Source of the DNA: Burkholderiaceae bacterium
GTDB lineage: Bacteria; Pseudomonadota; Gammaproteobacteria; Burkholderiales; Burkholderiaceae_E
Assembly (NCBI GenBank): GCA_024637155.1
Contig: JAGXFR010000028.1
Location: 1 to 64,000 of the forward strand
DNA length: 64,000 nt
Reading direction: 5' to 3'
In this document: positions 34,724 to 60,734 of the stretch, piece after piece
Numbering within the stretch: the first letter of the stretch is position 1
Layout: the number at the start of each line of letters is the position of its first letter
Translations under genes and position numbers: made by a program
Notes under the pieces: generated by a model
Databases searched by the model: none
Seen by the model: the letters and a program-made list of their open reading frames with translations, nothing else
What the model was told of the DNA's origin: nothing

Positions 34724-34876
34724 GGAGTGTTCCTCGCGTTCGGGCAGCGTCGCCGCGGCGCGACGGACGCGAACGAGCATAGCGCCATTCGCGCGGCTTT
34801 CATAGTTGCCGCGGCGCGTGGGGCGGTCGGATTCCTGCGTTGCTCTGCGCGCCGGGGTTCTCGCGTGGCGCGCCGC

Positions 34877-34929
34877 GGTCAGGCGCCCGCAGTCGCGGCA
34901 CGTGATCCGCTTTGTGCGGACGCCTGACC
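34877..34929 (+). repeat. Hairpin A, left end of copy 1
   Basis: Outer stem GGTCAGGCG/CGCCTGACC (9 bp), middle stem CCGCA/TGCGG, inner stem GCGG/CCGC, loop CACGTGAT. Same 53-nt length and architecture as the hairpin at 60132-60184, where the middle stem is CCGCG/CGCGG, a compensated change. Confidence 0.8.
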
Positions 34930-35024
34930 ACACCGCGCTACGTTGCGTTTCGGCTCGCAAGCAGATCGCTGCGATGTCGCGACACGGCTCATGCTCCACG
35001 CGTGCGGCAACGACGGCGCAGCGT

Positions 35025-35071
35025 CTCGCGGCGGGCGCCCGGCTCGTTACCCGGGCGCCACGCGCCGCGAG
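35025..35071 (+). repeat. Hairpin B1 of copy 1
   Basis: Outer stem CTCGCGGCG/CGCCGCGAG (9 bp) and inner stem GGCGCCCGG/CCGGGCGCC (9 bp), loop CTCGTTAC. Almost identical, in inverted orientation, to 59990-60036. Confidence 0.85.
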
Positions 35072-35198
35072 CCCGCCCGCCGGTGAGAGCGTGGGTCTGC
35101 AAGCAAGACACATGAGGCCCCTGCGCAGTAATCACGGACGAACCGCTTGCTCAAGCATGCATGCCACTGCACTGCCCAGCGCGCCGCTGGCGGACGCG

Positions 35199-35228
35199 CA
35201 CCCGATCGGATAACGGGCCGATCGGGTG
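35199..35228 (-). repeat. Hairpin B2 of copy 1
   Basis: Eleven-bp stem CACCCGATCGG/CCGATCGGGTG with loop CCCGTTAT on the minus strand. Counterpart at 59812-59835 keeps the CCGATCGG core, but its terminal pairs differ. Confidence 0.8.
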
Positions 35229-35369
35229 TGCGGGAGCGCGGTGCGCCGCTCCCATGTTCGCGGGAGACCTGAGCGTGCCAGTCGCATGGCAAGTGCGGCG
35301 GTCGTTCGCATGAGGGCTGTGCTTGCCGACTTGCTGAACCGTGTGCAGACACGCCTCAAAGCGTGATGT

Positions 35370-35422
35370 GGTCAGGCGTCCTGACCAAGCGGATCCCGTG
35401 CCGCGACTCAAGGACGCCTGAC
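35370..35422 (-). repeat. Hairpin A, right inverted end of copy 1
   Basis: GGTCAGGCG at 35370 and CGCCTGAC ending 35422 enclose, on the minus strand, GCGG-CACGGGAT-CCGC. Its interior matches the 34877-34929 hairpin in inverted orientation (shared AGTCGCGGCACG and GATCCGCTT), so the element has inverted terminal repeats. Confidence 0.8.
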
Positions 35423-35468
35423 GACAGCACGCCATGACGAAAGACCCGCGAGCGACGACAGCACGCCA
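35420..35468 (+). repeat. 15-nt direct repeat at the right edge of copy 1
   Basis: GACGACAGCACGCCA occurs at 35420-35434 and again at 35454-35468, offset by 34 nt. It starts within the last bases of hairpin A. Not seen at the edges of copy 2. Confidence 0.6.
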
Positions 35469-39708: not shown

Positions 39709-40144
39709 GGGAGCAGGTCGGGCGGTCGCCGGCCGGGTTGTACGCAACCCGGCGGGAGGAAGGTCCGGACTCCGCAGGACGGGATGCTGGCTAACGGCCA
39801 GGCGCAGCAAGCCGCAAGGCCCAGGGCGACGGAAAGTGGCACAGAAAACATACCGCCCACGGCGGCGCCAGCGTGCTTTGCCGGTCTTCGGACCGACACC
39901 GCAGACGTCGCCAGGCAAGGGTGAAAAGGCGAGGTAAGAGCTCACCGCGGGCATGGCGACGTGTCCGGCAGGCCAAACCCCATCCGGAGCAACACCAAAT
40001 AGGCACGCGCGCGGTTCGCCGCACGGGGTGGTCCGCCCCGGCGTGCGGGTAGGTGGCTGGAGCGCACGGGCAACCGTGCGCCTAGAGGAATGATCGTCAG
40101 GTCGCGCGAGCGACTCACAGAATCCGGCCTACAGACCTGCTCCC
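39709..40144 (+). ncRNA. rnpB: RNase P RNA, bacterial type A
   Basis: Catalytic RNA of RNase P, which trims tRNA 5' leaders. The ends pair as helix P1 (GGGAGCAGGTC at 39709-39719 with GACCTGCTCCC at 40134-40144). Conserved core blocks are in order: GAGGAAGGTCCGGACTCC near 39757, GGGTGAAAAGGCGAGGTAAG near 39918, GAGCTCACCG, and the 3' ACAGAATCCGGCCTA near 40117. The fourth base of the usual GGAAAGTCC is G here. It is located just upstream of mraZ, an order shared with pseudomonads. No clear U-tract terminator follows. Confidence 0.95.
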
Positions 40145-40288
40145 ACTTCTTCTGTCTCGTTTCGAGATGTTCAGACACTACTTCACCAATCCGCGCCAAG
40201 TCATTCATTTCCCTTGAAATCACGCGAAAAAGCGCTTGAGGTTGCGCGTCTAAGTCCTTGTCCCGATTGAAAAAAAAGTAACGATCAC

Positions 40289-58369: not shown

Positions 58370-58386
58370 GTTGCAGGAGAGGGGCG

Positions 58387-59316
58387 ATGCTGCGGCAACG
58401 GACGATCAAGTCGCTGGTGCGCACCACCGGGGTGGGGCTGCACTCCGGGCGGCGCGTCGAGCTGACGCTGCGTCCCGCGGCGGCCAACACCGGGATCGTC
58501 TTTCGCCGCATTGATCTCGAGCCGCCGGTGGAGATCAACGCCGCCGCCGAGCGGGTCACCGACACGCGGATGGCCTCGACCCTGAGCACCGGAACCGACG
58601 GCCACGACGCCGCCGCGCAGGTGGCGACCGTCGAGCACCTGATGGCCGCGCTGGCCGGTCTGGGTATCGATAACCTGTACGTGGATGTCACCGCGGCCGA
58701 GATTCCGATCCTCGACGGGTCGGCGGGCTCCTTCGTGTTCCTGATCCAGTCGGCGGGCGTTCTCGAGCAGGGCGCAGCCAAGCGCTTCATCGCGGTGCGC
58801 AAGGCCGTCGAGGTCCGCGATGGCGACAAGTGGGCTCGCCTGGAGCCGCATTTCGGCTTCCGGCTGCGCTTTTCGATCGACTTCGCGCACCCCGCGATCG
58901 ACGCAACCACCCAGCAGGTCGAGGTTGACTTCGCGACGGACTCGTTCGTGCACGATGTGGCGCGCGCGCGCACCTTCGGGTTCATGCAGGACGTCGAGGC
59001 GCTGCGCGCGAGCGGACTGGCGCAGGGCGGCAGTCTGGGAAATGCCATCGTGATGGACGAGTACCGGGTCCTCAATGCCGAGGGGCTGCGCTCGGCCGAC
59101 GAGTTCGTCAAGCACAAGATTCTCGACGCGATCGGCGACCTCTATCTGGTCGGCCACCCGCTGCTCGCCGCGTACTCGGCGCACAAGTCCGGTCACGCGC
59201 TGAACAACACGCTGTTGCGGGCCTTGCTCGCGGACGCGGAAAGCCACGAGGTCATCAGTTTCGCCGAGCGCAAGGCCGCACCCCGGCTCTTCGCTCTCGA
59301 CTGGAGCCTCGCCTGA
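58387..59316 (+). CDS. lpxC: UDP-3-O-acyl-GlcNAc deacetylase LpxC
   Basis: Zinc deacetylase of 309 aa catalysing the committed step of lipid A synthesis. It starts [24 protein letters not shown]; zinc and catalytic residues lie in [32 protein letters not shown] and [15 protein letters not shown] in the first half is also typical. It follows the peroxiredoxin gene by 17 nt with AGGAGAGGGGCG as ribosome-binding site. Confidence 0.97.
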
Positions 59317-59353: not shown

Positions 59354-59536
59354 GTGATCATCGTCCTGCGCATCGTCTTCGCCCTTGGCCTGATCGTGGC
59401 GCTGTGGTGCGGCGTCGCGTATCTGATGAGCGGTGAACGCCGCTACCTGCGCCTCGCGCTGCGCACGCTGCTGGGTACCTGCGTGCTGGGGCTGCTGTTC
59501 TTCGCCGGCCTGATCGCGGAGCGGCTGCTGTCGTAG
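59354..59536 (+). CDS. Small two-helix membrane protein
   Basis: Predicted 60-aa inner-membrane protein with two hydrophobic helices (MIIVLRIVFALGLIVALWCGVAYLM split around residue 20, and TCVLGLLFFAGLIAERL) separated by a basic loop GERRYLRLALRT. GTG 59354 is the start; no strong ribosome-binding site. It follows lpxC by 37 nt, so is probably in the same transcript. I do not recognise a family; coding is supported by the consistent membrane topology. Confidence 0.6.
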   Translation: MIIVLRIVFALGLIVALWCGVAYLMSGERRYLRLALRTLLGTCVLGLLFFAGLIAERLLS

Positions 59537-59610
59537 CGCTTTGCGCTGTTCCGTTCGCGCGATGCCTGCCGTTCTCGCCTGCCCTCGGTCGCGGGGCAGT
59601 GGCGCGGCGC

Positions 59611-59673
59611 GCTGTGCTCAGGTACCCGCGTTCGCCGCTCGTTACCGGCTCGGCGCGGCCACCTGAGCACAGC
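59611..59673 (+). repeat. Hairpin A, left end of copy 2
   Basis: Thirteen-bp outer stem GCTGTGCTCAGGT/ACCTGAGCACAGC, middle CCGCG/CGCGG, inner GCCG/CGGC, loop CTCGTTAC. Relative to 60132-60184 both the outer (GGTCAGGCG type) and inner (GCGG/CCGC) stems have changed with matching changes on the other arm. Confidence 0.85.
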
Positions 59674-59811
59674 ACGCTCCGGGGCATCCCCGCGCACGGT
59701 TCACCAAGTCGAACCCCACCCGCCCGCGCGCAACTGCAAGCCATCCGGCCCGCCGGGCGCGCACCGGTCGCGCTCGCGTGCGCCAGCGCGGCGCGCCGCG
59801 CTCCCGTGCGC

Positions 59812-59835
59812 GCGATCGGCTCGTTACCCGATCGC
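59812..59835 (+). repeat. Hairpin B2 of copy 2
   Basis: Eight-bp stem GCGATCGG/CCGATCGC with loop CTCGTTAC, followed by the block GTCCGCCAGCGGCGCGCTG that is also found, inverted, next to the copy 1 hairpin. Confidence 0.8.
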
Positions 59836-59989
59836 ACACACGTCCGCCAGCGGCGCGCTGCGTGACACCCCCACATACGTATTCGGACAACGCAGCAGCC
59901 CGTGGAGTCAAGAACGCCTGCGGTTCCGCTGGATGCAGTCAAACGGCAGCGAGAGGTACACACATGCGGATGCGCAGCCGGCGGGCAGG

Positions 59990-60036
59990 CTCGCGGCGGA
60001 TGGCGCCCGGGTAACGAGCCGGGCGCTCGCCGCGAG
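59990..60036 (-). repeat. Hairpin B1 of copy 2
   Basis: Outer stem CTCGCGGCG/CGCCGCGAG, inner stem GGCGCCCGG/CCGGGCGC, loop GTAACGAG on the plus strand (CTCGTTAC on the minus). Nearly the same sequence as 35025-35071. Confidence 0.85.
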
Positions 60037-60131
60037 ACGGGCGCCGTCACCGGCGCAGGCATGAGACGCGTGTCGTGTGGATTCATCGCAGCGACGGCTA
60101 CGCGTGCGCAAGCTGCTACCCGGCGCGATGT

Positions 60132-60184
60132 GGTCAGGCGGCCGCGCCGAGCGGGTAACGAGCCGCGAACGCGGACGCCTGACC
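60132..60184 (-). repeat. Hairpin A, right end of copy 2
   Basis: Outer stem GGTCAGGCG/CGCCTGACC, middle CCGCG/CGCGG, inner GCGG/CCGC, loop GTAACGAG on the plus strand. Outer stem identical to copy 1, interior changed with pairing kept. Confidence 0.85.
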
Positions 60185-60223
60185 GCAGCGCGCACCAACG
60201 AATGAGCGCGTCCCTCGCCCGCC

Positions 60224-60679
60224 CTACTTTGCTCCACGCCGGTGCCGCCGCACCAGCCGCGCAAGCGCCTGCTGCAGTGGAGTAAGTGCTCGCTTGCCGG
60301 GCCCGGAGGGGGTTCCGATGGCTTCGAAGGCGGCCAGCGCGCTCTCCGGAATGTGCCGCGGCGTCCAGGCGGGCGCGGGGGGCGGGCGAATCGAGCGTTG
60401 CGGCCGGAATCGGATTCGATTAACCTGTAGCGAGGTTCCCTGGAGCGCAACGAGCAGCGAGGGCTCGAGTTGACGGCATTTGGCCGCCGCGCCCGACGAT
60501 CGTGTCGCCACGGTCAGCGTGTCGCCTTCGATCGCGACAACGGCCAGCCCCAGTTCTGGCGCGGCGCGCTGCAATGCGGCTTCGAGTCGCAGCAGCGTAT
60601 CGACCCGTTGCGCGGCATCACGATAGCTCGGGTCGGTGCCGAGCCAGTCCAGGACCTGTTTGGGAACGCTTCGTTGCAT
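60224..60679 (-). CDS. dciA: DciA (DUF721), replicative helicase loader
   Basis: Protein of 151 aa of the DUF721 family; DciA loads the DnaB helicase in most bacteria lacking DnaC. The conserved core includes LDWLGTDPSYRDAAQRVDTLLRLEAALQ and LTVATRSSGAAAKCRQLEPSLLVAL, where the KCRQLEPSLL part is typical of the DUF721 domain. The C-terminal tail is basic. The start is ATG 60679; longer in-frame sequence upstream overlaps the divergent peptidase gene. Its position between lpxC and secA, opposite in strand, is conserved in many proteobacteria. Confidence 0.85.
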   Translation of the reverse strand: MQRSVPKQVLDWLGTDPSYRDAAQRVDTLLRLEAALQRAAPELGLAVVAIEGDTLTVATRSSGAAAKCRQLEPSLLVALQGTSLQVNRIRFRPQRSIRPPPAPAWTPRHIPESALAAFEAIGTPSGPGKRALTPLQQALARLVRRHRRGAK

Positions 60680-60734
60680 CGGGAATTCACGACTCCTGAG
60701 CGAACAACGATAACAGAGTGGGAGCGGTAACGGC

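Follow-up and report, generated by a model that had tools for sequence, protein, structure and literature searches.

A candidate family of palindromic DNA hairpins with a conserved apical core in a Burkholderiaceae bacterium and its relatives

Two copies of a four-hairpin repeat

The window, i.e. the whole stretch of 64,000 nucleotides analyzed here, contains two copies of one four-hairpin repeat, elements A and B, which are located 24 kb apart. Element A is bordered on one side by lpxC (58384–59316) and a small ORF (approximately 59354–59536) and on the other side by a convergent minus-strand ORF (approximately 60224–60700). Element B directly precedes an Iso_dh gene and has a GDPD gene on its upstream side. 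The window also harbors a gene for bacterial class A RNase P RNA (39710–40147, 262 bits). The components of the two elements are as follows:

59602–60198, plus strand: element A, four-hairpin interspersed repeat
59602–59681, plus strand: A-H1, outer hairpin (R1 match 87 bits; core 59630–59654; loop CTCGTTAC at 59638–59645)
59786–59865, plus strand: A-H2, inner hairpin (stem CCGATCGG; loop CTCGTTAC at 59820–59827)
59976–60055, minus strand: A-H3, inner hairpin in inverse orientation (stem GCGCCCGG; loop CTCGTTAC at 60011–60018)
60119–60198, minus strand: A-H4, outer hairpin, inverse of H1 (core 60146–60170; loop CTCGTTAC at 60155–60162)
34863–35437, minus strand: element B, second four-hairpin copy
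35357–35437, minus strand: B-H1, outer hairpin (core 35384–35408; loop CACGGGAT at 35393–35400)
35174–35253, minus strand: B-H2 (loop CCCGTTAT at 35210–35217)
35007–35086, plus strand: B-H3, inverse (loop CTCGTTAC at 35043–35050)
34863–34942, plus strand: B-H4, outer hairpin, inverse (core 34891–34915; loop CACGTGAT at 34899–34906)

H1 and H2 thus share one orientation and H3 and H4 the opposite one. In element A, H1 and H4 are mutually inverted copies over 71 nt with 85% complementarity, i.e. terminal inverted repeats are present. An earlier note on this DNA had described eight hairpins with 8-nt loops across both elements, and all eight were found as listed; the interval to which it assigned them (59611–60184) holds for element A, but the other four reside in element B. 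Its observation that the stems differ and are nevertheless complementary was confirmed for GCCG, GCGG, CCGATCGG and GCGCCCGG of the inner hairpins.

The loop sequence CTCGTTAC occurs five times in the window compared to 0.5 expected occurrences, a number reached in none of 100 shuffles. A background-level frequency of the octamer in unpaired contexts had been named beforehand as an argument against a special role of the loop. In the window as a whole, the degenerate octamer is at background level (73 occurrences vs. 93 expected), yet four of the nine hairpins with a perfect stem of at least 8 bp and an 8-nt loop carry it, as opposed to none in 20 Markov windows; it hence stands out in hairpins only. 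When folded as single-stranded DNA, all eight 80-nt hairpin segments were better than their shuffles (z −2.7 to −6.1). Kissing between complementary loops (H1/H2, H3/H4) was considered and rejected: H1 and H4 have the same oriented loop in 6 of 22 copies (3.3 expected, p 0.07), with all other pairs at chance.

Dispersed copies and their gene context

A blastn search of the 3.2-Mb genome revealed 23 full or partial dispersed elements of approximately 570 bp, and the covariance model of the outer hairpin (R1) detected 46 outer hairpins. Among the readable loops of the 23 copies, 84 of 89 fit CNCGNKAY, with 14 different loop sequences in total. Genome-wide, position 5 is therefore freer than the K of the previously proposed consensus CNCGKKAY.

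All 23 copies adjoin the 3' end of a gene, typically at a distance of 28–126 bp. Thirteen are flanked by convergent genes and none by a divergent pair, which compares to 5 convergent, 5 divergent and 16 tandem arrangements in the gene calls of the window (P ~8e-5 and 0.007, respectively; both values are approximate, as the background stems from a simple codon-usage gene caller). Relative to tandem genes, the orientation of the copies is mixed. Ten proteins, most of them encoded next to copies, were examined; ordinary housekeeping enzymes are represented, as is a transporter, but not a transposase. Target-site duplications are lacking, since flank matches of the copies equal those of shuffled pairings. 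Many elements of this genome are flanked by short direct repeats of the CGTGGCGYGC type, arranged in tandem 70 bp outside of H1 and H4 (e.g. at loci L007 and L022), which may represent eroded outer ends or binding sites.

A conserved apical core on covarying stems

The unit conserved in the outer hairpins is an apical core of approximately 25 nt, A-KTC-GCNN-[CNCGNKAY]-NNGC-TYKG-T, that consists of the octaloop, a short stem and an asymmetric 3-by-4 nt internal loop. The loop had initially been put forward as the conserved unit; its conservation stands, but in the outer hairpins it is part of this larger core. The inner hairpins H2 and H3 have the octaloop in common with the outer ones, but not the internal loop. 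Around the core, stems of 20–36 bp differ in sequence. Thirty-five outer hairpins could be aligned without gaps, with T, C and G on the 5' side, C--CG--A with the octaloop, as well as C and G on the 3' side being invariant. The second positions of the internal loop covary without Watson-Crick pairing (G/T 45, T/C 13, mixed 0); these counts are not phylogenetically independent, but both states are present not only in this genome but also in g8.

In the stems, 90% of the cells are paired and double changes were observed for 23 of 24 pairs, comprising 20/20 outer and 3/4 inner pairs. The covariation score of 0.759 compares to 0.188 for shuffled and at most 0.166 for slid alignments, which bears out the stem covariation suspected earlier and provides strong evidence for folded DNA. 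The outer-stem cells comprise 644 Watson-Crick, 2 G·T and 20 A·C combinations. In hairpins from genera g3 and g8, pairwise identity amounts to 94% in the core, but only 47% in the arms.

Distribution in congeners and other genera

R1 matched one to four hairpins in each of three congeners, numbers that are lower bounds owing to the fragmented assemblies. These matches are orthologous to two neighboring copies of this genome beside guaC (lig–guaC–CMD region). Here, a full element is found on either side of guaC, while congener G002 carries one full but shorter element, G001 a two-hairpin element and G003 a solo outer hairpin, each together with an empty site. Between genes resembling carboxymuconolactone decarboxylase and metallo-hydrolase genes, approximately 300 bp are present at locus L119 (11901–12216) and missing from two congeners; this stretch could be a small minus-strand gene.

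R1 also matched three hairpins in other genera that exhibit the same tip on unrelated stems. With the core as a search pattern and R2 as a second model, the outer-hairpin family was detected in genera g1, g3, g5 and g8, which corresponds to 13 of 74 genomes within the bacterial family, and the core is common to relatives in g3, g5 and g8 on unrelated stems. Both being models of the outer hairpin, they may miss members without the internal loop. Elsewhere in the order, only background-level matches were obtained, and in a sample of 398 genomes from the phylum, R2 with strict filters matched only this genome. Sister-genus hairpins are located between tandem genes such as dnaK–dnaJ, infB–truB and ilvN–ilvC. 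Two core hairpins, L350 (G094 C34, between apparent ilvN and ilvC) and L343 (G007 C16), feature an ATTC/TCGG variant of the internal loop. Neither the element nor the core was matched in plasmids, phages or viral contigs; four viral contigs carry an arm 17-mer without a hairpin. Likewise, in a degenerate scan of genome contigs, the loci checked among the matches listed were arm matches without a hairpin.

Stem turnover at orthologous sites

Five sites are orthologous between g8 species, namely dnaK–dnaJ, DUF3501, alaA–hom, infB–truB and a uvrA linker (gene names were assigned by reading the translated ends instead of by a family search). Nine comparisons, each covering 22 pairs, yielded 58 pairs with both partners altered and no pair with a single altered partner, while 23–25 of the 25 core positions remained identical. 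At the DUF3501 site, G022 carries the core in the opposite direction to that of G010 and G083, although the 600-bp flanks are 93–97% identical. Template switching between inverted repeats is known to yield both arm homogenization and spacer inversion (Abraham and Hazkani-Covo, PMC8604942; Monttinen and Löytynoja, PMC8794818). The two-sided changes without intermediates and the inverted core fit this process, and covariation alone is no proof of selection for pairing. The earlier note had taken loop conservation with stem covariation to suggest recognition; the covariation is strong, but as template switching gives the same pattern, recognition has to be argued from the core alone, which stays while the stems change.

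Taken to the extreme, the palindromes could arise and stay perfect by replication template switching without any recognition, the octamer being inherited from one ancestor. The 58 double vs. zero single changes and the core inversion are the very signatures of this process (PMC8604942, PMC8794818). We give this scenario very little credence, as it leaves the conservation of a 25-nt core within and between genera amid stem turnover without explanation and accounts neither for the covariation in the internal loop nor for the same octaloop on inner hairpins with unrelated stems.

The same data bear on the nature of the folded strand, for which both RNA and DNA had been envisaged. Hairpins in 3'-UTRs or intercistronic regions that serve as terminators or in processing or stability and are read by an RNA-binding protein would agree with the gene 3' ends adjoining 23/23 copies, mostly in convergent pairs, and with the sister-genus hairpins between tandem genes. 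Such a structured RNA is nonetheless quite improbable given that the hairpins point either way with respect to transcription, that close relatives differ by an inversion at one site and that G–T pairs are almost missing. Moreover, the element contains no terminator-like site and no T run, and no Rfam family credibly matched it above the gathering score, microRNA-like hits all being sub-threshold. DNA is favored over RNA because of both transcription-relative orientations, the near absence of G–T pairs and the core inversion.

In G022 and G096, hairpins are found in frame inside a long uvrA gene that are missing from congeners. One stretch of G022 (L274, 1501–1816; C1:22781–23096) contains two inverted core hairpins in frame in uvrA, corresponding to approximately 100 extra residues compared to congeners, and the same long ORF has a further hairpin in a linker. 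At a second uvrA site, E2, the empty places in G094 and G030 resemble footprints left by deletion of an older hairpin. The uvrA footprints are more suggestive of the loss of old hairpins than of fresh insertion. Inverted duplication of host target DNA as the source of stems was hinted at by uvrA site E1, but E2 did not bear this out and the idea was rejected.

Relation to known repeat classes

What defines repetitive extragenic palindromes (REP) is a foot tag, either GTAG or CGTC, together with short, conserved stems of 5–13 bp.PMC3733652 The hairpins described here are reminiscent of REP/BIME systems with their RAYT enzymes in that these are dispersed short palindromes, often after genes or between convergent genes, in inverted pairs and sometimes intragenic,PMC3733652 but here the apex is conserved, the stems are longer with free sequence and RAYT is absent. 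Neither tag is common to the feet of the four outer hairpins of the window; CGTC stands ahead of the stem in many copies of H1, which is not the case for H4. The earlier view that the hairpins are unlike classical REP is thus upheld by the lack of foot conservation. The search for HUH enzymes covered the Y1_Tnp family only: no Y1_Tnp/RAYT gene (PF01797) is encoded in this genome, and in hairpin-bearing genomes PF01797 is restricted to a 71-aa fragment in G003, for which reason a RAYT partner was rejected. CGTC repeats including the Rickettsia palindromic element have likewise been reported to lack a dedicated transposase and to occur inside genes,PMC3733652 but display 8–9 bp stems, 4–5 nt loops and the CGTC tag instead of an octaloop with an internal loop.

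With a non-coding composition, a length of approximately 0.6 kb, inverted outer ends and multiple copies, the element resembles a MITE, from which it differs by the lack of target-site duplication and by hairpin ends whose tip is conserved. A classical REP/BIME or MITE moved by a RAYT or DDE transposase would be in line with the roughly 70-nt inverted outer hairpins, which are similar to terminal inverted repeats or to a REP pair in inverted arrangement, and with the intergenic position after genes. This origin is highly doubtful and already largely refuted by the Y1_Tnp search, the missing common foot, the non-conserved stems and the absent target-site duplication. Integron attC boxes (RYYYAAC and GTTRRRY) were found neither in element A nor in element B. 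Mitochondrial double-hairpin and repetitive hairpin elements (DHE and RHE; e.g. PMC2800124) are comparable in type, as mobile-looking hairpin repeats without a known enzyme, but are organellar. The inverted repeats evolving by template switchingPMC8604942, PMC8794818 share arm homogenization and spacer inversion at orthologous hairpins; what is described there is a mutation process, and here this process operates on a family whose core is conserved. In our best reading, the family is REP-like, but foot-less and RAYT-less.

A putative address at the tip of folded DNA

Taken together, we lean, with some reservation, toward a lineage-specific family of palindromic DNA hairpins, formed as cruciform or single strand, whose core is the address of a putative protein, whose stems are rewritten by template switching and which has spread as a composite in this genome. 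The outer-hairpin core with its octaloop, short stem and 3-by-4 internal loop would be read by a putative trans-acting protein, while complementarity would suffice for the stem below, whose sequence could be freely rewritten. This rewriting would largely result from replication template switching, in which one arm is copied onto the other and the core is sometimes inverted. Two outer plus two inner hairpins may constitute a non-autonomous mobile composite that reached 23 sites in this genome, most likely with a hairpin-recognizing recombinase or replication protein other than a Y1 (RAYT) transposase. The placement after genes probably reflects where insertion is tolerated. Against this proposal, the inner hairpins H2 and H3, possessing the octaloop only, fall outside the outer-core rule, which hence does not describe all four hairpins. 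The missing target-site duplication and the loss-like uvrA footprints also count against it.

In a more specific and decidedly tentative version, the hairpins make up an address system in which a putative enzyme or replication protein reads the octaloop and the asymmetric internal loop whatever the stem, and mobilizes or uses the sites. Core conservation at orthologous sites could, conversely, reflect a host function instead of mobility. The sites would then be immobile and beneficial, with the core binding a chromosomal cruciform-recognizing protein of the nucleoid, replication or repair and copies being kept through use. The identity of 23–25 of 25 core positions at orthologous sites, where stem pairs change at about one third of positions, speaks for this explanation. 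We consider it unlikely, however, in view of outer-hairpin numbers that range from 0 to 46 among related species, positions that are not common to different genera, congeners that are empty at the same place and hairpins within the uvrA coding sequence.

Known bacterial palindromic repeats are recognized by a tag at their foot; the family of lineage-specific DNA hairpins favored here is tagged at its tip. If it is true that a protein reads this tip, folded DNA would be addressed in vivo in a novel manner. The family is furthermore a clean natural record of hairpin-stem renewal, with its paired changes, absence of single ones and core inversion, and this record tests the origin of compensatory change, i.e. 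selection through wobble intermediates versus template switching.
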